Assembly: GCA_026393455.1 (NCBI GenBank)
Contig: JAPLAE010000103.1
Coordinates: 1 to 32,091, forward strand
DNA: 32,091 nucleotides
Reading direction: 5' to 3'
From: Actinomycetota bacterium
Lineage (GTDB): Bacteria; Actinomycetota; Acidimicrobiia; Acidimicrobiales; Acidimicrobilacustridaceae
In this document: piece by piece, positions 644 through 32,091 of the stretch
Layout: each line of letters starts with the position of its first letter
Numbering within the stretch: the stretch's first letter is position 1
The notes under the pieces: generated by a model
Databases searched by the model: none
What the model saw: only the letters and a program-made list of their open reading frames with translations
What the model was told of the DNA's origin: nothing
Position numbers and translations under genes: made by a program

Positions 644-2784
<2,141 letters not shown>

Positions 2785-2788
<4 letters not shown>

Positions 2789-3783
2789 CCGAAGCCGCCG
2801 AGGATGCCGTCTCCCTCATTGAGGGGATTCGCTCCGGCGATCGGCGCTCTTTGGCCCGCGCTATCACGTTCGCCGAGTCCACTCGGTCTGAACACCGAGT
2901 CATTGCCGATGCGGTGCTCGAAGCTGTTCTGCCTTCCACGGGCAACGCTGTTCGCGTCGGAATTTCCGGTCCACCAGGAGTCGGCAAATCGACGTTCATT
3001 GAAGCGATCGGAAATCACATCATCAGTCAAGGGCTGCGTCTTGCCGTTCTTGCCATCGACCCTTCCAGCCGCTTGACCGGCGGATCAATCCTCGGTGATA
3101 AGACACGAATGGGCGAACTCGCCAACCAGCCGAACGCATTCATTCGCCCCTCCCCCGGAGGCACGCAGCTTGGTGGCGTAGCGCGCCGCACACGCGAGGC
3201 CATGCTGTTGTGCGAAGCAGCAGGTTTTGATGTCGTCATTGTTGAAACAATCGGTGTCGGTCAATCAGAAGTTGCGGTATCAGACATGGTTGACCTGTTC
3301 GCTCTCCTCGTTTCGCCTGGCGGCGGCGATGAACTACAGGGAATCAAGCGCGGCATTATGGAATTGGCCGACCTCGTCATCGTCAATAAGGCCGATGGCG
3401 ACCTTGCCGCGGCCGCGGCGCGGACCCGCGGCGATTACGCAAGCGCGGTTCACTTGCTGCGGCCGAAATGGAACGCATGGACGACTGAGGTACTCGCATG
3501 TTCTGCCCTCAATGGCATTGGCGTCTCCGAAGTTTGGGATGCAGTGACGTTGTTCCGTTCGACCGTCACCGCCAATGGCGAACTGCTCGAAGCTCGCTCG
3601 GCACAGGCCACAGCGTGGCTCTGGAGCGAAATCGGCGACACGCTGCTCGAGCGCTTCCGCGCTGATCGTCACGTTGCCGGCTTGCTACCCGAAATCGAGT
3701 CAGCAGTTTCCGACGGACGAGTCACTCCAGCGAAAGCTGCTCTCGAACTTCTTCAAGCATTTAGTGCCTCCAAACCCGATTGA
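2785..3783 (+). CDS. meaB: MeaB/ArgK-type G-protein chaperone of methylmalonyl-CoA mutase
   Basis: MeaB proteins are P-loop GTPases that gate adenosylcobalamin loading into methylmalonyl-CoA mutase and protect or rescue it from inactivation. The 332-residue protein shows Walker [10 protein letters not shown] (residues 62-70), the IDPSS magnesium loop (91-95), the FIRPSP segment, [10 protein letters not shown] around Glu154 and the guanine-specificity motif NKAD (201-204). The reading frame is open further upstream, but I take the GTG at 2785 because its GTGA overlap with the mutase stop is typical of translational coupling and the resulting length is normal for the family. Being directly downstream of mutB fixes its role as the mutase chaperone rather than an arginine-transport kinase, the old annotation of ArgK. 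Confidence 0.95.
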
Positions 3784-13883: not shown

Positions 13884-14729
13884 CTAAGAGTTCACTTGAG
13901 CGACGAGACGAAGCAGTGGTACCCGAAAGTCCTTCATATCTTCGACACCCGACAGTCGAAGTGCTGCGTTGTCTAGAACCGAATTTGCTGGTCGTGGCGC
14001 CGGTCTGGCGGGCTGCAAGTCCGCCGTAGCAATTGGGTGAACACGCGTCGGATCTTGTCCTGCAGCGAGAAGAACTTCTCGCGCGAACTCGAACCAGCTC
14101 ACTGCTCCCTGGTTCGTGACATGAAACGTGCCACTTCGTCGTTCCGTCACGAGTTTCGCAATCATCGCGGCCAGATCATCAGCAAAGCTCGGATGCCCGA
14201 ATTGATCGTTGACGAACGACAACGTTTCGTGCTCGCCCGCCAACCGCAGGATCGTTTTCACCATGTTTGATCCGTGAAAACCACAGACCCATGACGTGCG
14301 GATAACGGTGGAACCGGTATCGAGTTCGAGCTCCCCTGCCAGTTTCGACAGGCCATAGACAGACTGAGGATTTGGTGCGTCCCATTCGACATACGGCGAA
14401 TCCTTTGAACCGTCGAAAACGTAGTCAGTCGAGATGTAGTGCACAGGCGCATCAACCAACCGTGCAGCTTCAACAACAAAGCGAGTTCCCATCGCGTTTA
14501 CGGCAAAGGCCCGATCGGGATCGCCTTCGCACGCGTCGACTGCAGTCCACGCCGCTGAATGCACTATCGCATCTGGGTGAAACTCCATGACCACAGCCCG
14601 AACCGCATCGCGACGGGTTACGTCAAGGGTTGCGTGCGTGAAACCTTGAACCTCGTGCCCACCCGCCGCGAAGACGTCAACGAGTTCTGTGCCGACCTGT
14701 CCCCCAGCTCCGGTGATCAGAACGCGCAC
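13884..14729 (-). CDS. rfbD: dTDP-4-dehydrorhamnose reductase
   Basis: The last enzyme of dTDP-L-rhamnose synthesis, reducing dTDP-4-dehydro-L-rhamnose with NAD(P)H in the cytoplasm. This 281-residue short-chain dehydrogenase has the nucleotide motif GAGGQVG (7-13), the active-site stretch ST101DYVFDG, and the catalytic pair Tyr125 and Lys129 in YGLSKLAGE. Length and motif order match RfbD/RmlD. The GTG at 14729 follows the rfbB stop by three bases, so it is co-translated with rfbB in the order rfbC-rfbB-rfbD. Confidence 0.96.
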   Translation of the reverse strand: MRVLITGAGGQVGTELVDVFAAGGHEVQGFTHATLDVTRRDAVRAVVMEFHPDAIVHSAAWTAVDACEGDPDRAFAVNAMGTRFVVEAARLVDAPVHYISTDYVFDGSKDSPYVEWDAPNPQSVYGLSKLAGELELDTGSTVIRTSWVCGFHGSNMVKTILRLAGEHETLSFVNDQFGHPSFADDLAAMIAKLVTERRSGTFHVTNQGAVSWFEFAREVLLAAGQDPTRVHPIATADLQPARPAPRPANSVLDNAALRLSGVEDMKDFRVPLLRLVAQVNS

Positions 14730-14732
14730 GAA

Positions 14733-15686
14733 TCAGCCCTTCAGTGGTTCCCACCAGGCGCGATTGGCCCGGTACCACTCAACCGTCTCTGCAACAGCGC
14801 TATCGAGGTCACGGGTAGGCGACCAACCAAGCGCTTTGGCCTTCGAACAGTCGATCGAATAACGACGATCGTGCCCAAGCCTGTCTTCGACGAACTCAAT
14901 CATTTCTTCACCAACTCCACAGTTGGCGAGCACCATCGACGTGAGATCGCGGTTCGTGGTCTCGTTCCCACCACCGATGTTGTAGACCTCGCCGACCTTG
15001 CCATTACGTAACACCGTGTCGACGCCAGCACAGTTGTCCTGAACATGAATCCAATCTCGGATGTTCAATCCATCGCCATAAAGAGGAACCTTTTTGCCAT
15101 CAAGCAAGTTGGTGACAAACAACGGAATAACTTTCTCTGGGAATTGGTAGGGCCCAAAGTTGTTCGATGATCGGGTAACGATCACCGGCAATCCATAGGT
15201 TTCTTCGTACGAAAGCGCAATGAGGTCAGATCCGGCCTTCGATGATGAATAAGGAGATCGGGGTTCAAGTCGGTCAGTCTCGACAAATGAGCCTTTCTCG
15301 ATCGATCCATAAACTTCGTCGGTCGAGATATGAAGGAATCGGTCGACGCCGATGACGCGAGCAACATCACACATGACGTTTGTGCCCAGACAATTCGTTC
15401 GCACAAAGGTGTCGGGATCAACGATTGAGCGATCGACATGACTTTCGGCTGCGAAGTGCACAACGGCATCGTGCCCCGCCATTGCGGCTGTCACTGCAGT
15501 TCGATCGCAGATGTCGCCCTGCACGAATGAATAGTGCTTGTTGTCAGCAACGTCAGCCAAGCTCGAAAGGTTGCCCGCATAGGTCAGCGCGTCAAAGACT
15601 GTTACTTCGTCGTCCGTTGTTTCCAATACGTGACGCACGTAATTTGAGCCGATAAATCCGGCCCCGCCGGTCACAAACAATTTCAT
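14733..15686 (-). CDS. rfbB: dTDP-glucose 4,6-dehydratase
   Basis: It converts dTDP-D-glucose to dTDP-4-dehydro-6-deoxy-D-glucose, the second step of the rhamnose pathway, with tightly bound NAD+. The 317-residue protein has TGGAGFIG (6-13), the dehydratase triad segment S121-T-D-E-V-Y-G with Asp123 and Glu124, and Tyr146/Lys150 in YSSSKAGSD. The Asp-Glu pair after the Thr separates it from plain epimerases of the family. The frame is open to 15731, but the ATG at 15686 begins exactly at the family N-terminus and has an AAGGA ribosome site about ten bases upstream; the extension would overlap rfbC. It lies between rfbC and rfbD in one operon. Confidence 0.96.
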   Translation of the reverse strand: MKLFVTGGAGFIGSNYVRHVLETTDDEVTVFDALTYAGNLSSLADVADNKHYSFVQGDICDRTAVTAAMAGHDAVVHFAAESHVDRSIVDPDTFVRTNCLGTNVMCDVARVIGVDRFLHISTDEVYGSIEKGSFVETDRLEPRSPYSSSKAGSDLIALSYEETYGLPVIVTRSSNNFGPYQFPEKVIPLFVTNLLDGKKVPLYGDGLNIRDWIHVQDNCAGVDTVLRNGKVGEVYNIGGGNETTNRDLTSMVLANCGVGEEMIEFVEDRLGHDRRYSIDCSKAKALGWSPTRDLDSAVAETVEWYRANRAWWEPLKG

Positions 15687-15700
15687 GATGGAGTTCCTTC

Positions 15701-16267
15701 TCAGGGGCGCAGGAGCCAGTGCGGCTGCCACTGCGGTTCAATATCAACCCGACGCGGATTGGCTTGGTCTCGTCCGGAAAGGATCGGTTCGGTTACTCCC
15801 CAATCGGCGCCAATTGCAGGATCGTCCCAGGCCACACCAAGTTCATCAGCTGGGTTGTAGTAATTGTCGACCAAATAGGTAATGGTCATATCGGTGAGAG
15901 CGGCGAAGCCATGAGCCACGCCCGGCGGAATGAAGATACCGCGGTGACTATGGGTGCCATCGGCCTGACGGCCAAGGTCGATCCATTGTGTTGCCCCATC
16001 GGTGGGAGAACCTGTGCGCAGATCATGCAATACAACCCGTGCAGTGCCATAGGGGACGTACCAGTAATCGGCCTGATGCAGGTGATAATGCAAGCCCACA
16101 ACCGCACCCGCTTGGCGGTCTCCGCGGTTGCCCTGCACCATTTCACGACCCTGGGGGAACCATTCTCGTCGGTAGGTCTCGACGAAGAAACCGCGCTCGT
16201 CGCCGTGGATCGAAGGGTCTACGAGGTAAACCCCAGCGATCTGTTGTGATTCGGTGATTTCAGCCAT
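15701..16267 (-). CDS. rfbC: dTDP-4-dehydrorhamnose 3,5-epimerase family protein
   Basis: A cupin-fold epimerase of 188 residues, acting between RfbB and RfbD. The N-terminus has DERGFFVETYR (23-33), the catalytic His60 lies in GLHYH, and IPPGVAHGFAAL (113-124) supplies the second conserved His119, followed by a Tyr-rich strand. Two positions differ from textbook RmlC: the residue before GLH is Val instead of Arg, and the usual Lys in the QxK motif appears as Asp68 in HQADYW. This may mark a subfamily, and its activity is less certain than its neighbours'. The ATG at 16267 has AGGA eight bases upstream and is preferred over the TTG just before it. Operon position supports the rhamnose role. 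Confidence 0.88.
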   Translation of the reverse strand: MAEITESQQIAGVYLVDPSIHGDERGFFVETYRREWFPQGREMVQGNRGDRQAGAVVGLHYHLHQADYWYVPYGTARVVLHDLRTGSPTDGATQWIDLGRQADGTHSHRGIFIPPGVAHGFAALTDMTITYLVDNYYNPADELGVAWDDPAIGADWGVTEPILSGRDQANPRRVDIEPQWQPHWLLRP

Positions 16268-16302
16268 CAATGCGTTCCTGAAGTCTCGATGAACAAGAGG
16301 TC

Positions 16303-16325: not shown

Positions 16326-18383
16326 CTACGGAAGTGTCTTGCACCCCAGAAGTTGATGATTTCCCGGTCCCACATTGATCCCATAGACACACACCGTCTG
16401 GGATCCAGATCCTGTTCGACCCACGGTGGTGCTGTACCCATGATTCGCACCGTTGCCGAACACTGCGCCGACATCGGGACGAGATCCATTCGCCAACACA
16501 CCGACAGACGCACCATTCACATACACATGCACGAAAATCGGATCGTTTGTGTTTGGATCAAACGCCCAACCCGTCACGGCTATCGAATTTCCAACTGCCG
16601 TCACACTGTCGATCATGCCAACAGGGTTTGCCGACGGCACCACAAAGTTTCTGCAAGCGAGAATCGTTCCGTTCTGTCCTCCAGAAACATCCAGTGCCGC
16701 GATACACATCGCGTGATTACCCGGGGACAGCCAGATCGGAATTGAGTAGCCATGGTTTATTCCGGAACGTGGAAATGGAGCGGCAAGATCTGCTCGGGGA
16801 TTCTCGGCCGTCGCAGTGGACCATTGCCCATCGACAAGTACGAGCATCGTCACTGGCGCTGAGGTATCGGGATCAATTGCCCAGCCATTGAAGGTTGCGG
16901 AACCGGGTTGAACCACGATGTTGTCCAACACTCCGAATGGCGACCCGCCCGGTGCACCCGCCACCGTGACGCTTTGACAACGGAGAGTCGTATGGGATCC
17001 AGGTCCGACGTTGATGGCGTAGACACAAACGTTGTGCGCACCAGCGGAAGCGGGAGCGGTGAGATCAAATCCGTGGTTGGCGCCGTATCTCGAGAAAGCT
17101 GCGGCGACATCGTTACGAGTGTTCGCAGCAAAAGTTGGCGTACCCACAGAATCGACGTAGACGTGGACACCAATGGCGGCCCTCGTATCGGGATCGAGCC
17201 CCCAACCCGACACTCGAATCGTTCCGTCGCCAGCGACTACAGAGTCCACAAAACCGATGGGAGGACCAGGCGGTAGCCCGATGGTCTTACATCCCAATAA
17301 TTTGTTGCCACCAGCGCCACTGTTGATTGCATAGACACAAATACTCCGAGAGTCCGGCCCTAGAGGAACCGCGTAGGAGAACCCGTGGTTCGGTCCAAAT
17401 CCTGGGAACACCGCACCAACGTCACTGCGGGGCAGGCCAGCAACAGCCCAGTTGTTCGCCGAGTCAACATAGGTATGAATAGGGATCGATTCACGAGTAT
17501 CGGGGTCAATCGCCCAGCCTGAGACCGTCGCCGAAGATTCCGAAGTAATCGAAATTGCATCGAGGGAGCCGAAGGGAGTGCCGGCTCCGGCACCTGATCC
17601 TGTGAGGGCTCCCAGCGCACCAAGATCGCAGCAGAAACGGTTCATGTCGACGTTGCCGATAATCCCTGGCACCGCACCGACGCTGTAGTTCTGCCAGAAC
17701 GTCCACGAAGACCAGCCGCCGTAGACCGGTGGAACGTAGGTGTCTACATTCGGATCGCAGAACAAGGACCCGTCCTGCCGTTGGCAGTGGTAGTCCGCTG
17801 TCCAGAGGATGTAGTCACGACCGATATCGGCTCCGTAGTTGCCGATGTTTCCGCTCCAAAACCAACGACCGGTATAGACAAGCGGACGTTTCCCAGTGAG
17901 CAACGTCACCTCGGAAAGAAATGTTCTTGTCCATTGCGCTAAATCTGATTGGGAGAGCCCGCCGGTCTCTTCCAAATCAAGCTCACCAGGAAGATCAGCA
18001 CCACCGGTCATTGATCCTGTGCGTGAAACAAAATACCGGGCTTGATCAACAGCGGTACTCATCGGCAGCGCTGGCCGAGCGTAGTGATAGGCGCCGCGGA
18101 ACATACCGGCATTCGCTATCCCCGACCAATCACCTGCGAAATAGGGATTCGTATATGACGTACCTTCGGTGGCCTTCACGTACGCGAACGAATGACCAGC
18201 ACTCCGCACTGCGCCCCAATTGATGCCCGCTCCCCCTGGATGCTGATAGCTCGCCACATCAACACCAGTAATCACAGCGCCAGCCGCAGACGCTATAGCG
18301 ATTGACGCAGCGAACGCGATGAAGAAACCGATAACGACTCTCAGAGTAACGCGAGGGTTTAGGGGGGAAGGAGTGTCAGTCAT
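16326..18383 (-). CDS. Secreted GH25 muramidase (lysozyme) with four C-terminal repeat modules
   Basis: A 685-residue exported protein predicted to cleave the N-acetylmuramyl linkage of peptidoglycan. Residues about 14-36 form a hydrophobic signal peptide ending near Ala-Gly-Ala. Residues 38-255 are a GH25 domain: GVD42VASYQ, GINWGAVRSAGHSFAYVKATEG-like order, the catalytic LD136LE138E motif, FWQNYS near 230 and VDMNRF (245-250). Residues about 269-684 are four copies of a roughly 100-residue repeat with the signature GWAxDPDT and NHGF, and two conserved cysteines each (349/365, 453/469, 560/577, 665/681), suggesting one disulphide per module. Such tails in lysins usually bind the wall; here that is inference. 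The ATG at 18383 has no good ribosome site but no alternative start exists before the signal peptide. Confidence 0.9.
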   Translation of the reverse strand: MTDTPSPLNPRVTLRVVIGFFIAFAASIAIASAAGAVITGVDVASYQHPGGAGINWGAVRSAGHSFAYVKATEGTSYTNPYFAGDWSGIANAGMFRGAYHYARPALPMSTAVDQARYFVSRTGSMTGGADLPGELDLEETGGLSQSDLAQWTRTFLSEVTLLTGKRPLVYTGRWFWSGNIGNYGADIGRDYILWTADYHCQRQDGSLFCDPNVDTYVPPVYGGWSSWTFWQNYSVGAVPGIIGNVDMNRFCCDLGALGALTGSGAGAGTPFGSLDAISITSESSATVSGWAIDPDTRESIPIHTYVDSANNWAVAGLPRSDVGAVFPGFGPNHGFSYAVPLGPDSRSICVYAINSGAGGNKLLGCKTIGLPPGPPIGFVDSVVAGDGTIRVSGWGLDPDTRAAIGVHVYVDSVGTPTFAANTRNDVAAAFSRYGANHGFDLTAPASAGAHNVCVYAINVGPGSHTTLRCQSVTVAGAPGGSPFGVLDNIVVQPGSATFNGWAIDPDTSAPVTMLVLVDGQWSTATAENPRADLAAPFPRSGINHGYSIPIWLSPGNHAMCIAALDVSGGQNGTILACRNFVVPSANPVGMIDSVTAVGNSIAVTGWAFDPNTNDPIFVHVYVNGASVGVLANGSRPDVGAVFGNGANHGYSTTVGRTGSGSQTVCVYGINVGPGNHQLLGCKTLP
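16332..17579 (-). repeat. Four tandem about 100-residue GWAxDPDT protein repeats
   Basis: The modules span residues about 269-368, 375-473, 480-580 and 586-684 of the GH25 protein. Each begins near (P/V)xGxxDx(V/I), has GWA(I/F)DP(D/N)T about 20 residues later, a (V/I)HVYVD-like strand, an R-x-D-(V/L) turn, NHG(F/Y), and ends VCVYAIN...L(L)GC. They have diverged at sequence level, so this is old duplication. Confidence 0.85.
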
Positions 18384-18491: not shown

Positions 18492-19586
18492 TTAAGCCAG
18501 TTCTACGACTGAATGATCACCGATCATCAGTCGATTGGCATGCGGCTCGCTTTGCGATTTACGCACTTCAACCTGCTTACCGACTAACGAATCAGCAATC
18601 GTATGGATCCCGGTGATTCGCGACTCTTCAAGAATCACCGAATTCTCAATCGTGCTGTCGGAAATTTCGCAATCGAAATAGATCGATGCGTAGGGACCAA
18701 CGGTGCTGTCGATGATTCGAGATCCTTCACCAATAATCACGGGACCACGCAATGTGGAATTAACCACGTCAGCGCCCGCTTCGATGACGACAATCCCCTC
18801 TAATACCGATACAGCGTCGACGGTTCCTGCATTCGATGCTTCAAGCATGTCGAGCACAAGGCGATTTCCCTCGAGAAGTGGTTCGAGTTTGCCGGTGTCT
18901 TTCCACCAACCTTCGAGCACCTCATGCCGAACACGATGACCGTTATCGATGAGCCACTGAATTGCGTCAGTGATTTCGAGTTCTCCGCGCAGTGAAGGAT
19001 CGATTGCAGCAACAGCTTCATGGATATGGCGATCAAAGAGGTACACGCCAACAAGCGCGAGATCCGACTTTGGTTCGACCGGCTTCTCCACTAATTGTGT
19101 CACTTCGCCATCGGCGCCGATTTCAGCAACACCAAATCGTTGGGGATCGGGAACGCGCGCAAGCAAGATCTGTGCGGACGGAACTTGCACATCGCCAGCG
19201 CGAGATCCGGCATGATCGGTTTCAAAGCTCTCAACGAATTCGGCGATGCCCTGGCGGAGCAAGTTGTCGCCGAGATACATCACAAAGTCATCGTCACCAA
19301 GAAAATCCTGAGCGATCAAGACACAGTGCGCCAGGCCCAGCGGAGCCTCTTGAGGTATGTAGGTGACCTTGGCCCCCCAACGCGAGCCATCTCCAACTGC
19401 AGCTTGAATCTCGGGGCCAGTGTCTCCAGTGACGATGCCGATTTCGGAAATACCGGCCTCGACCATGTCCTCGATCCCATAGAAGAGAATCGGTTTATTG
19501 GCCACCGGAACCAACTGCTTGGCACTGGTGTGGGTGATTGGTCGAAGTCGCGTGCCGGCGCCGCCGGAAAGAATGAGTCCTTTCAC
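18492..19586 (-). CDS. rfbA: Glucose-1-phosphate thymidylyltransferase, long form
   Basis: The first step of dTDP-rhamnose synthesis, joining dTTP and glucose-1-phosphate. The 364-residue protein has the pyrophosphorylase motif LSGGAGTRLRP (6-16) with Lys23 downstream, the YLGDN metal motif, VEKP in the middle and the WWKDTGK motif. After residue about 245 follow hexapeptide-like strands rich in Ile/Val and Gly (left-handed beta-helix), as in the roughly 355-residue StrD-like form common in actinobacteria and archaea rather than the 290-residue RmlA. The GTG at 19586 gives the family N-terminus; a TTG at 19613 would add nine residues without a ribosome site. It is separated from rfbCBD by the GH25 gene. 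Confidence 0.94.
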   Translation of the reverse strand: MKGLILSGGAGTRLRPITHTSAKQLVPVANKPILFYGIEDMVEAGISEIGIVTGDTGPEIQAAVGDGSRWGAKVTYIPQEAPLGLAHCVLIAQDFLGDDDFVMYLGDNLLRQGIAEFVESFETDHAGSRAGDVQVPSAQILLARVPDPQRFGVAEIGADGEVTQLVEKPVEPKSDLALVGVYLFDRHIHEAVAAIDPSLRGELEITDAIQWLIDNGHRVRHEVLEGWWKDTGKLEPLLEGNRLVLDMLEASNAGTVDAVSVLEGIVVIEAGADVVNSTLRGPVIIGEGSRIIDSTVGPYASIYFDCEISDSTIENSVILEESRITGIHTIADSLVGKQVEVRKSQSEPHANRLMIGDHSVVELA

Positions 19587-19655
19587 AGGCAATGGTCTAT
19601 CAGCCCAACCCAAATATTTCGAAGGGGCGACAACCCGACGCCGTAGCGAGGGTGA

Positions 19656-21599
19656 TCAAACTTTGCGGCAGCCCAGAAGGACATGTACCCCTACACCAAC
19701 GTTGATGCCATAGACACAAACGTCTGACGAGTTTCCACGGGCCGGCACCGTCACGGCGAAACCGTGATTATTGCCGTAGCCCGGCATCGCTGCCCCGACA
19801 TCGGGTCGCGATCCCGAGGCTGAAGCGAGAGTGTTGACACCATTTACATAGACATGAATATCTACCGATGCAGCAGTGTCCGGGTCAATCGCCCACCCGT
19901 TCACAGCGATTCCACCGGAGGTGCGGGTCACAGAGTCAAGGAATCCCGTTGGTGAGCCTCCAGACAAAGTGACTTGCCGACACCCAACAGTCATCGCCGG
20001 AAGTGCATTGAGTCCAACACAAACTGTGTGTGAACCACCATAAGAAGTTGCGGTTCCAGAGAAACCCGTGACGAGTTCTGCGCCTGAAAAAACAGCGAGA
20101 ACATCGGGCCGAGCAACTGTTCGACTCACGCGACCAGCGACCTGACCATCGACATAGAGAGCTATTGACGCAGACGCGTCGCCCGGAAGGAATCCCCATC
20201 CCCAGACATCGATCGCTCCAGGTCGAATTTGCGTTCCATCAATAAATGCAAGCGGTACTCCAGAAACTAAAACGGAGCGGCATCCAAGGTTGGTGTTCAC
20301 ACCAGGCCCACCGACATCGAGAGCAGTCACGCAGATGTTCTGTGTCCCTGGAGTTGCATTAATTGTTACGTCGAACCCGCTGTTGCCGGGCGCACCGGGA
20401 ATAACCGCAGCGACATCTGCTCGGGAAATCTGCGTCGTTATGTTCTGGGCGGCGGAACCGACGCTCACACTCAGCGCTAGTGGAGTCTGCGTATCGCGAT
20501 CAAAGGCCCACCCCCTCACGCGGACTCGATTTGAACCTGATTCTTCAACCGAGTCCAGGAATCCGACAGGACTCGTGGCTCCGCAGACACCTCTCATCGT
20601 CGTGAGATCACAAAGTGCCGCGCTGCGCTCCCAAACCAGTGATGTGCGGGCGTTCGTGGTGACAGGCTTCGACGCCGTGATTCCAATGTCATAACCCGTG
20701 TCGGCAGCCAACCAGATGCGGTATTCCCGTCCATTAGCGCGAAGCACATAGAACGGTTTAGGCAGCGGTGTCACGTAGTTCGGACGAGTCGGATCGTAGG
20801 TTCCACTGGTCCAGCCGCGAGAACCTTGCGCATTGGCCGGGTTGACATACCAACAGGGCAGGTTCGTTCCTAAACCAGCAACCGTGCAGGTTCGCGATGA
20901 CATTCCGCCAGAACGATCGACTGTTGCGTCTTGACCCGAATTGATTTTTCCCTCGGTAACAAGCTGCTGATAGCGAGATTCACAGACACTAGAAGCGCCA
21001 GCGCTGCATCCGAACCACGGACCCCACGCATAGGACCTGCGGAGTTCTGGCGTTCCCCTACGGCTGTCAGGAGCGTTGCAAAAGCGGTAAGCGATTGTTG
21101 ATGCGGCCGCATTCGAAGAAGTCACTGCATCAATCGCGTCAGCAGCGGTTAGATCCCATCCACCTGCTGAATCGAATTGCCAAAGCCCAATCCCTGGACT
21201 GAAGAATGCGTTGACATACGGGCCCGTTGTCTGCCCAAATGCGAAAAGAGTTGCATTGCTCGCCGAAACCGACATGTTGTCCCAACGCGAGAGGGCCATC
21301 GGCGAAGGCACGGGACCTCCCGCTTCGAAATAGGTCGGCACCATCATCATCACGGCGAGTTCTACTGAGGTGAGACCGCACTGTGAATAGGGGCCGGTGC
21401 TCGTCGTCCGATCTGCAGCGTCACGAATCGCGTCGAGCGGACCCTTTCCATAGCTTTGTCCCGAGGTCGGAACGTCGACGACACCGGGCAAACATGCAGT
21501 GGCCCCGACAGCAAGAACGAGGAGAACTCCAAAGATGGCGCTTCGACGTCGACCGATTCGACGGAACGGAGATTTGGACCTCAACGCAAAGACGGACAT
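19656..21599 (-). CDS. Putative lipoprotein with novel N-terminal domain and three GWAxDPDT repeats
   Basis: A 647-residue exported protein. A basic N-terminus and a hydrophobic stretch (about 20-35) end in GATAC, a lipobox-like site at Cys36, although Thr/Ala at -2/-1 make it imperfect. Residues about 50-340 match no family I can name. They contain many cysteines (74, 174, 198, 206, 238, 249, 330 and 339) and a segment SVE80LAVMMMVPTYFE92AGG followed by GIGLWQFDSAGG (136-147), which recalls the Glu...G-x-x-Q arrangement of lysozyme-like transglycosylases. Residues 342-647 are three repeats shared with the GH25 protein, with cysteine pairs 423/440, 527/540 and 628/644. I chose the ATG at 21599, which has GAGG five bases upstream, over the GTG at 21605. 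Function unknown; peptidoglycan cleavage or wall binding is inferred. Confidence 0.85.
   Translation of the reverse strand: MSVFALRSKSPFRRIGRRRSAIFGVLLVLAVGATACLPGVVDVPTSGQSYGKGPLDAIRDAADRTTSTGPYSQCGLTSVELAVMMMVPTYFEAGGPVPSPMALSRWDNMSVSASNATLFAFGQTTGPYVNAFFSPGIGLWQFDSAGGWDLTAADAIDAVTSSNAAASTIAYRFCNAPDSRRGTPELRRSYAWGPWFGCSAGASSVCESRYQQLVTEGKINSGQDATVDRSGGMSSRTCTVAGLGTNLPCWYVNPANAQGSRGWTSGTYDPTRPNYVTPLPKPFYVLRANGREYRIWLAADTGYDIGITASKPVTTNARTSLVWERSAALCDLTTMRGVCGATSPVGFLDSVEESGSNRVRVRGWAFDRDTQTPLALSVSVGSAAQNITTQISRADVAAVIPGAPGNSGFDVTINATPGTQNICVTALDVGGPGVNTNLGCRSVLVSGVPLAFIDGTQIRPGAIDVWGWGFLPGDASASIALYVDGQVAGRVSRTVARPDVLAVFSGAELVTGFSGTATSYGGSHTVCVGLNALPAMTVGCRQVTLSGGSPTGFLDSVTRTSGGIAVNGWAIDPDTAASVDIHVYVNGVNTLASASGSRPDVGAAMPGYGNNHGFAVTVPARGNSSDVCVYGINVGVGVHVLLGCRKV
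19659..20576 (-). repeat. Three about 100-residue GWAxDPDT repeats of the lipoprotein
   Basis: Modules lie at residues about 342-443, 447-542 and 548-647. The third (GWAIDPDT, NNHGF, VCVYGIN, LLGC) is closest to the GH25 copies. The middle one is the most diverged, with GWGFLPGD in place of the signature and no NHG motif. Confidence 0.82.
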
Positions 21600-21614
21600 G
21601 CACACCTCAAAACA

Positions 21615-30330: not shown

Positions 30331-30867
30331 TTAGGGCTTCACGGACCGCGTTGGCAACGATGTGCCTTCTTGCCAGCGAGCAAGAGTCCAGAGCAGATCC
30401 GATAAGCGGTTGAGATAGGGAACGACTGCGCTTCCGGGACCAGCAGCAGCGAGACTGTCGCGCTCGGCGCGACGAGCAACTGTTCGTGCGACGTCGAGCA
30501 GTGCGCCGATTCGATTCTGACCCGGCACGACGAACTCGGTCGGCTGTTCGAACTTCGCGCTTGTGCTGTCGATCAACTCTTCGAGATGGGAGACCATGTC
30601 GTCGGTCACGAGTGTTGCCCCTGCCTTCAACTTGTCGCGACTACCGGGATCGGCGGCGAGTTCGCCCATCAGAACCCAGAGGTCACGTTCAAGATGCACC
30701 AACAGGTCGCCCAGTTCGGCATCGGCTTCCGCTCGAGCCAGCCCGAGAAACGATTGCAACTCGTCGACGGTCCCGTAGGCAGTCGGTGCCGCTGAATTTT
30801 TTGCGACACGACCGCCATAGAGCAGCCCAGTTGTGCCGTCATCACCTTTACGCGTATAGATCTTCAC
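30331..30867 (-). CDS. Cob(I)alamin adenosyltransferase, PduO type
   Basis: It transfers the adenosyl group of ATP to cob(I)alamin, making adenosylcobalamin, the cofactor of the mutase at 644. The 178-residue all-helical protein has the ATP motif YTRKGDDGTTGL (4-15) and the C-terminal block DVARTVARRAER (125-136) followed by YLNRLSDLL. Where most family members have PGG...LHVART it has PGQNRIGALLDVART, with Asp125 in the place of the common His. The GTG at 30867 has no ribosome site but has TAGGCT seven bases upstream, fitting a leaderless start. Confidence 0.93.
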   Translation of the reverse strand: MKIYTRKGDDGTTGLLYGGRVAKNSAAPTAYGTVDELQSFLGLARAEADAELGDLLVHLERDLWVLMGELAADPGSRDKLKAGATLVTDDMVSHLEELIDSTSAKFEQPTEFVVPGQNRIGALLDVARTVARRAERDSLAAAGPGSAVVPYLNRLSDLLWTLARWQEGTSLPTRSVKP

Positions 30868-30874
30868 GACCGCG

Positions 30875-30880
30875 AGCCTA
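30875..30880 (-). promoter_or_regulatory. -10 box TAGGCT (leaderless) of the adenosyltransferase gene
   Basis: TAGGCT ends seven bases before the GTG at 30867, in the divergent gap to metH. Spacing and sequence match the other TAnnnT boxes in the window. Confidence 0.4.
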
Positions 30881-30934
30881 GAGGCAGCGAGGCAGCGAAC
30901 CCGCCTCCAGCGTCTGATCGCGACCGCGCTCTGC

Positions 30935-31040
30935 TACCGTGTGAGAGTCGAAGCTGACCTGATGGGTAGGGCGTGATGCCCCGGCTTGCGGCGAGATCAC
31001 ATCCGATGCTCGTTCCGCGCCAAACCATCTTCAGGAGATC
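30935..31040 (+). promoter_or_regulatory. metH leader with hairpin and possible extended -10
   Basis: TACCGT at 30935-30940 preceded by TGC resembles an extended -10 box and would give a leader of about 100 bases. Within it GTGAT (30973-30977) pairs with ATCAC (30996-31000), enclosing a CCG/CGG stem around GCTTG. An AAGC at 30950-30953 could pair with the loop. The leader is long for this window and metH genes are often riboswitch-controlled, but I see neither a cobalamin box nor the full SAM-IV core, so no class is assigned. The ribosome site AGGAG is at 31033-31037. Confidence 0.3.
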
Positions 31041-31044
31041 CACG

Positions 31045-32091
31045 ATGAGCACATTCCTTGAGGCAATCCATGACCGGGTCGTCATCTTCGACGGCGGCAT
31101 GGGCACCTGCATTCAGACCAGTGGTGTCACGGCTGACGATTTTGGTGGACCGGACCTCGAGGGCTGCAACGAACTCCTCGTCGTCACCCGACCTGACGTC
31201 ATTGCCGATGTTCACGCCCGTTACCTCGAGGTCGGCTGCGATGTCATCGAGACCGATACGTTCGGCGCGTTCGCTATCCCGCTGGGCGAATACGACCTCG
31301 CCGATCGTGTTCACGAATTGAACGTTGTGGCTGCCCGCCTTGCCCGAGGCGTCGCGAATGACTTTTCGACCCCCGACCAGCCTCGTTGGGTCGCCGGCTC
31401 AATCGGGCCCGGCACTCGCTTCCCTTCACTCGGTCAGATTCGCTATGCCGAACTTCGAGACCACTACGAAGCGCAGGCGCGAGCGCTCATCGAAGGTGGT
31501 GTCGACCTTCTGATTATCGAGACCATGTTCGATCTCCTCACTGTAAAAGCCGCCATGAACGGCTCTCGCCGAGCGATGCGAGCAGAGGGTCGTGAAGTAC
31601 CACTTCAGGTGCAGGTCACGATGGAACTCACCGGTCGCATGCTGCCAGGGACCGAAATTGCAGCGGCTCTTGCCGCAATCGACCCGCTCCATCCCGATGT
31701 CATTGGCATTAACTGCGCAACTGGTCCGGTCGAAATGGGCGAACACCTTCGTCATCTCGCCGCCCACGCCCGCATGCCTATCTCATGTATTCCAAATGCC
31801 GGCCTGCCGAGTGTTGTCGACGGACATATGCACTACGACCTCTCGCCAGAAGGTCTGGCCGACCACCATGAACGATTCATCACCGAACTTGGCGTGAACA
31901 TCGTCGGTGGCTGCTGCGGAACAACACCCGAGCACCTCGCCGCTGTCGTCGAACGCTGCCGCGATCTCACTCCTGCCCCACGTAAGCCGATGCACGAGGC
32001 CGGAGCAACATCGATCTATTCGCTCGTACCGTTTGAACAAGACACCTCGTTCATGATCATTGGCGAACGCACAAACGCCAACGGTTCGAAG
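31045..32091 (+). CDS. metH: Cobalamin-dependent methionine synthase (3' end beyond window)
   Basis: It methylates homocysteine to methionine using methylcobalamin and methyltetrahydrofolate. The first 349 codons are present and remain open at the window edge. Residues about 1-305 are the homocysteine-binding barrel: FDGGMGTCIQ near the N-terminus, the zinc ligands Cys224 in GINCATGP and Cys290-Cys291 in GGCCGTTPEH. From about 330 the folate domain begins with FMIIGERTNANGSK. The pterin, B12 and reactivation domains should follow to the right. The ATG at 31045 has AGGAG about seven bases upstream. It is divergent from the cobalamin adenosyltransferase gene with a 177-base gap. Confidence 0.95.
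   Translation, partial: MSTFLEAIHDRVVIFDGGMGTCIQTSGVTADDFGGPDLEGCNELLVVTRPDVIADVHARYLEVGCDVIETDTFGAFAIPLGEYDLADRVHELNVVAARLARGVANDFSTPDQPRWVAGSIGPGTRFPSLGQIRYAELRDHYEAQARALIEGGVDLLIIETMFDLLTVKAAMNGSRRAMRAEGREVPLQVQVTMELTGRMLPGTEIAAALAAIDPLHPDVIGINCATGPVEMGEHLRHLAAHARMPISCIPNAGLPSVVDGHMHYDLSPEGLADHHERFITELGVNIVGGCCGTTPEHLAAVVERCRDLTPAPRKPMHEAGATSIYSLVPFEQDTSFMIIGERTNANGSK

Follow-up and report, generated by a model that had tools for sequence, protein, structure and literature searches.

The lipoprotein encoded on the minus strand at positions 19656 to 21599 of the window, by which we mean the whole stretch of 32,091 nucleotides that was analyzed, is best explained as a membrane-anchored glycosidase of the lysozyme superfamily. 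In the reading that we favor, with some reserve, it belongs to a family outside Pfam and NCBIfam and probably cuts peptidoglycan together with its GH25 neighbor. We regard it as probably a wall-cutting enzyme because its N-terminal domain has a probable, model-based lysozyme fold and carries a glutamate that is conserved in every relative examined. The initial annotation had taken the protein for another wall hydrolase, too diverged to be recognized easily, and this proposal is probably sound, judging from the predicted structure.

The gene, read from an ATG start, encodes 647 amino acids. An upstream GTG (21603-21605) extends the open reading frame to 19656-21605 of the minus strand and 649 amino acids; the in-frame ATG at 21597-21599 has a ribosome-binding-like GAGG just 5' of it at normal spacing, as read from the sequence, and counting from this ATG gives the residue numbers of the initial annotation. 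The first 36 codons (21492-21599) specify a signal peptide and a lipobox, A-T-A-C, at residues 33 to 36, its Cys being Cys36; the lipoprotein would be anchored at the outer face of the membrane. A lipobox-like motif is present in all 18 of the nearest rows of the alignment (the window and L002-L018; 14 by regular expression, L015-L018 by eye) and was not called in any of the other 12 rows, among which L022 is truncated. The features listed by the initial annotation are all there in the translation under ATG numbering: SVE80LAVMM, FE92AGG, G136-I-G-L-W-Q141, and eight cysteines, at residues 74, 174, 198, 206, 238, 249, 330, and 339, all of them after the lipobox and before the first of the C-terminal repeats.

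The absence of a recognizable family, also claimed initially, was borne out by the searches. The whole protein had no match at E<=1 in either Pfam or NCBIfam, and nothing useful emerged from PHROGs (no match better than E 0.31) or from the sequences of the PDB, where the best match (E 0.37) was the unrelated DnaD. A PDB profile search with 30 rows returned only an unrelated photosystem peptide (E 0.4), and a Pfam scan of all 30 members of our first alignment, A1, gave stray matches only, the best at 0.099. The SLT profile (PF01464) matched none of these 30 members, and neither the GH19 (PF00182) nor the Rpf (PF06737) profile matched the whole protein or the 30 members. Profile-profile comparison by hhalign indicated no sequence homology to a set of 12 SLT sequences (probability 0.2) or to Rpf (probability 1.9, P 0.025); at a lower mact setting the Glu falls on the Rpf Glu, yet the alignment is not significant. 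The protein is not described in the literature that we searched on Microthrixaceae peptidoglycan, new lysozyme-like families, Microthrix glycosidases and rhamnose, and Acidimicrobiia lytic transglycosylases. A phage origin was considered and set aside: no relative was found in viral contigs (19 pattern matches, none confirmed), phages, or plasmids.

Structure prediction was more informative. An AlphaFold2 model of the N-terminal region, built from 18 sequences (pLDDT 81.2, pTM 0.84), consists of helices up to about residue 176 and beta strands thereafter, and it splits in two: a lysozyme-like domain (model residues 1-182; positions 20943 to 21488, minus strand) and a beta domain (model residues 185-304). 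The region of about 290 residues that the initial annotation treated as one domain thus comprises two. Foldseek gave no match to the model at E<=0.001, the best lysozyme-type row being MltF at E 0.82, and a viral structure library likewise gave none at E<=0.001. VIA-align was run on the top 1,000 Foldseek chains, of which 995 were aligned. Among the best 50 of these 995, ranks 1 to 33 all belong to the lysozyme superfamily, and the first other fold follows at Z 3.4. The best match is MltF (Z 7.3, rmsd 4.0, 128 residues aligned), followed by a Ralstonia GH23 chitinase (Z 6.8, rmsd 3.2, 120 aligned), MltC (Z 6.7, rmsd 3.1, 123 aligned), MltE (Z 6.1, rmsd 3.5, 126 aligned), a goose-type lysozyme (Z 5.8, rmsd 3.5, 128 aligned), and a GH19 chitinase (Z 4.4, rmsd 6.1, 143 aligned). 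Slt70, SltB1, Slt35, phage lysins, EtgA, and a GH124 cellulase also fall within these 33 ranks. A Z of 7.3 lies in the range that models without a true match often reach and would not convince by itself; we accept the lysozyme fold because of the uniformity of the top 33 rows. The N-terminal domain therefore probably has a lysozyme fold, as far as the model goes, although its GxGxWQxD stretch is modeled as coil (block pLDDT 62 to 81) and does not show the beta-hairpin typical of the superfamily, and model residues 61 to 110 are among the weakest parts. Where the initial annotation had suggested a new peptidoglycan-cleaving fold, we have dropped that idea in favor of a known fold, probably that of lysozyme, in a family that the libraries searched do not contain, since lysozyme-superfamily entries top the structural list. 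The condition named at that stage as refuting a wall hydrolase, a predicted fold unrelated to lysozymes, was examined in part, on the model, and did not refute it.

Conservation was assessed in two alignments. A1 has 30 rows, 29 of them lettered at Glu80 and Glu92; A3, also of 30 rows, combines 22 of the A1 rows with eight distant homologues and spans 26 to 94% identity. A3 omits L059, which is without the Glu half, and L064, a 44-position match with no Glu in the match, and two further matches with interrupted frames (L184 and L185; E 0.002-0.003) were ignored. Glu92 (codon 21324-21326) ends a helix encoded at 21324-21368 (model residues 41-55 by DSSP) and is Glu in all 29 lettered rows of A1 and in 30/30 rows of A3. 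Downstream lies the family signature PSPMALSRWD (21279-21308), in which Pro100, Met101, Arg105, and Asp107 (codon 21279-21281, a candidate general base) are present in every row of A3, and then GIGLWQFD (21171-21194), a combined GxGxxQ and GxxQxD motif that contains Gln141 and Asp143. In this last motif the second Gly and the Asp are conserved in 30/30 rows of A3, the Trp in 29, and the Gln in 28, with Ala replacing Gln141 in L023 and L062. The complete set of invariant positions in A3 is Leu81, Glu92, Pro100, Met101, Arg105, Asp107, Gly138, and Asp143. A Glu ahead of a G-x-x-Q motif, as first noted, is borne out by these counts. Glu80, the other catalyst put forward at that stage, was rejected: it is Glu in just 10 of the 29 lettered rows of A1 and in 9/30 rows of A3, where E, Q, D, R, A, T, G, M, or K occurs, and it is therefore not catalytic.

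The spacing of 49 between Glu92 and Gln141 can be set against published signatures, as given in PMC2976769. There, the Glu-to-Gln spacing is 51 in GH19, 49 in lambda lysozyme, and 22 in GH23, so that the lipoprotein resembles the first two in this respect and not the third; the GH19 signature is Glu67 with Gly113-Gly115-Gln118, and that of GH23 is Glu73 with Gly92-Gln95-Asp97. GxGxWQxD fits both the GH19 and the GH23/goose-lysozyme signatures. The same source has Asp97 of goose lysozyme positioning the catalytic water, a residue only partly conserved in GH23, and its Table 2 puts the two catalytic residues of GH19 and GH23 about 8-9 A apart. From conservation and these signatures we infer the catalytic residues: Glu92, at the C-terminal tip of the central helix, would be the general acid, Gln141 would line the active site, and the attacking water would be placed by Asp143 (compare goose lysozyme Asp97) or Asp107 (compare GH19 Glu89).

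Several known families come closest. GH23 (goose-type lysozyme, SLT, MltF, and MltC; PF01464) has the same predicted core fold (Z 5.8-7.3), a Glu at a helix end, and a GxxQ motif, extended to GxxQxD in goose lysozyme. The lipoprotein domain differs from GH23 in having no profile match (hhalign probability 0.2), a Glu-to-Gln stretch longer by about 27 residues, an extra PM.L.R.D signature, and a fused beta domain. GH19 chitinases and endolysins (PF00182) are alike in GxGxxQ and nearly so in spacing (49 here versus 51 in PMC2976769), and a GH19 entry is in the VIA-align list at Z 4.4, but again there is no profile match. Between Glu92 and the motif, where GH19 has its second catalytic Glu, the lipoprotein has the invariant Asp107, 15 residues past Glu92, as a candidate for that role. 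Rpf transglycosylases (PF06737) are lysozyme-type, actinobacterial, and similar in motif order, and hhalign aligned the WGPWFGC end of the lipoprotein domain to their WGAWPGC, at a probability of 1.9 and P 0.025 only. A precedent for a family proposed from sequence is PECACE (PMC550655), reportedly a lysozyme-like, peptidoglycan-cleaving family of Gram-positive bacteria; the lipoprotein domain matches no Pfam model.

The second, conserved beta domain (20577-20936, minus strand; model residues 185-304) was also predicted alone (pLDDT 83.5, pTM 0.74). Foldseek with this domain alone gave no match at E<=0.001, and in VIA-align avidins came out best (Z 4.5), with PliC lysozyme-inhibitor rows at Z 3.3 to 3.6 among ties; the resemblance to avidins and PliC inhibitors is too weak over this whole range (Z 3.3-4.5) for us to assign a fold. 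Its own strongly conserved positions are E255-Y-R-x-W, D263, and N279-A-R in domain numbering.

Three C-terminal repeats of the GWA-DPDT type, the first of about 100 amino acids, follow at 20277-20582 (E 1.7e-25), 19977-20270 (E 9.2e-35), and 19665-19970 (E 9.3e-47), all on the minus strand. Across 19665-20582 and 16338-17591, repeats of about 100 amino acids share two conserved Cys and a core of the form GWA-DPDT, and there was no confident Pfam match over them in either of the window proteins that bear them. The window's own genome (82.9% complete) has seven matches, confined to the lipoprotein and the GH25 protein, which agrees with the original remark that the C-terminal modules are shared with a muramidase (GH25 domain, E 7.5e-40). 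Two richer relatives have 29 and 31 copies, borne by GH25 proteins (Pfam-confirmed) and also by other exported proteins that by eye are protease-, SGNH-, and GH43-like. Because the repeats are thus not confined to wall hydrolases, sharing them says "exported" rather than "muramidase." Other homologues have SLH domains (3 of 8 scanned), FG-GAP-like repeats, or fibronectin type III domains in place of the repeats; all three are common on exported surface proteins.

The domain was detected in 32 of 61 relative genomes, and all tallies of distribution count the window's own genome in. Within the family 29 of 37 genomes have it, always as a single match, and these cover 12/12 genera; of the better genomes, 19 of 22 have it; in the class it is present in 13/296 genomes, and in the phylum in 7/396, one of these being a 44-position match. 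On these counts (29/37, 13/296, and 7/396), the lipoprotein gene is single-copy and nearly core in one family and sporadic elsewhere. Named records bearing the domain include Candidatus Microthrix and Microthrixaceae MAGs. L057, L058, L060, and L061, together with L059, are distant homologues; four of the group come from two genomes belonging to the same order, with two matches in each, two are fused to fibronectin type III domains, and the homologues other than L059, which is without the Glu half, keep the Glu and a [GA]xGxWQxD motif. Separately, the gene occurs at 42 to 77% identity in MAG records titled Bifidobacterium breve (L033, L034, L038, and L046) that coincide with genomes from the genus or the family of the window; these organism labels look wrong, as does that of L042, titled Acidobacteria.

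On the minus strand the gene order is methyltransferase, lipoprotein gene, RmlA, GH25, RmlC, RmlB, and RmlD. The RmlA-like nucleotidyltransferase (18492-19613; PF00483, E 7.3e-53) begins 42 bases downstream of the lipoprotein gene; the GH25 muramidase (16326-18383; PF01183, E 7.5e-40, residues 41-241) carries four repeats like those of the lipoprotein, and RmlC, RmlB, and RmlD (13884-16270; PF00908, PF16363/PF01370, and PF04321) account for dTDP-rhamnose synthesis. The polysaccharide cluster is flanked, at 644-3783 and 30331-32091, by genes that look like those of methylmalonyl-CoA mutase, its MeaB chaperone, MetH, and a cobalamin adenosyltransferase. We compared 28 neighborhoods of relatives (23 from the family and five from outside; the window excluded), which cover up to 20 kb and in several cases end at contig ends. 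RmlA is present in 21/28 (20/23 of the family), the GH25 catalytic domain in 16/28 (16/23 of the family), and a ThiF-rhodanese gene in 25/28; none of the five neighborhoods from outside the family has GH25.

This setting bears on the foremost alternative, in which a lysozyme-fold glycosidase acts on another surface polysaccharide, for example the rhamnose-containing polymer produced by the adjacent genes or a chitin-like glycan from the environment. A cluster for dTDP-rhamnose, glycosyltransferases, and ABC export surrounds the gene, and superfamily members with other substrates (the GH23 and GH19 chitinases and the GH124 cellulase) are among the structural matches. We nevertheless think it unlikely: the conserved neighbor belongs to a muramidase family and bears the same repeats, a lipid anchor would hold the enzyme at the membrane, and the neighborhoods of two homologues from outside the family (L175 and L176) contain neither Rml genes nor GH25. 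From the gene context we infer that peptidoglycan is the probable substrate.

A lytic transglycosylase of the SLT/MltF kind, yielding a 1,6-anhydroMurNAc product instead of hydrolyzing, is doubtful too, despite MltF, MltC, and MltE being the best structural matches. SLT-family genes were found in 0/13 genomes of the genus and 7/21 overall; to the extent that genomes of limited completeness can tell, the organism is without SLT-type enzymes, so the protein could fill the role. However, Rpf-type transglycosylase genes are already in 13/13 genus genomes (20/21 overall), so the organism has lysozyme-type enzymes, and the invariant Asp (30/30) at Gln+2 stands in place of the Asp97 of goose lysozyme, which positions water (PMC2976769). 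A search for GH19 genes gave no match in the 21 genomes and none in 14 controls either, so that nothing follows from it.

The nonsignificant Foldseek result and the failed profile-profile tests would be expected if the fold match were spurious and the domain something else, such as a cysteine-stabilized binding domain. We find this improbable, given that the top 33 of 33 structural rows come from one superfamily and that the published residue pattern of the superfamily coincides with the invariant columns. Least credible is a catalytically dead lysozyme fold serving as a glycan-binding or scaffold domain, to which the lack of any known activity and the loss of Gln141 in 2/30 rows might point, since three acidic residues invariant in 30/30 rows are hard to explain without catalysis.

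Under the preferred reading, the protein would consist of an N-terminal glycosidase domain, a beta domain peculiar to the family, and three surface repeats. It would most likely hydrolyze beta-1,4 bonds in glycan strands of the peptidoglycan of its own cell, and not act as a lytic transglycosylase. Its partner would be the GH25 muramidase encoded in the cluster, and the two would open or trim the wall during synthesis and attachment of a rhamnose-containing wall polymer. A more speculative version, which we consider unlikely in its full detail, is a new GH family of the lysozyme superfamily in which an obligatory and equally conserved beta domain clamps or gates the site and which has a single task in Microthrixaceae-type bacteria: with the co-encoded GH25 as a partner, it would cut peptidoglycan or the polymer itself where the rhamnose polysaccharide is attached.

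The domain described here marks a single-copy, nearly family-wide surface protein that is missing from the curated family libraries that we searched. Should it prove active, the lysozyme superfamily would gain a family with a mixed GH19/goose-lysozyme motif. The Microthrixaceae include the sludge-bulking Microthrix, and an active enzyme would give access to the cell wall of this family, which has been little studied.
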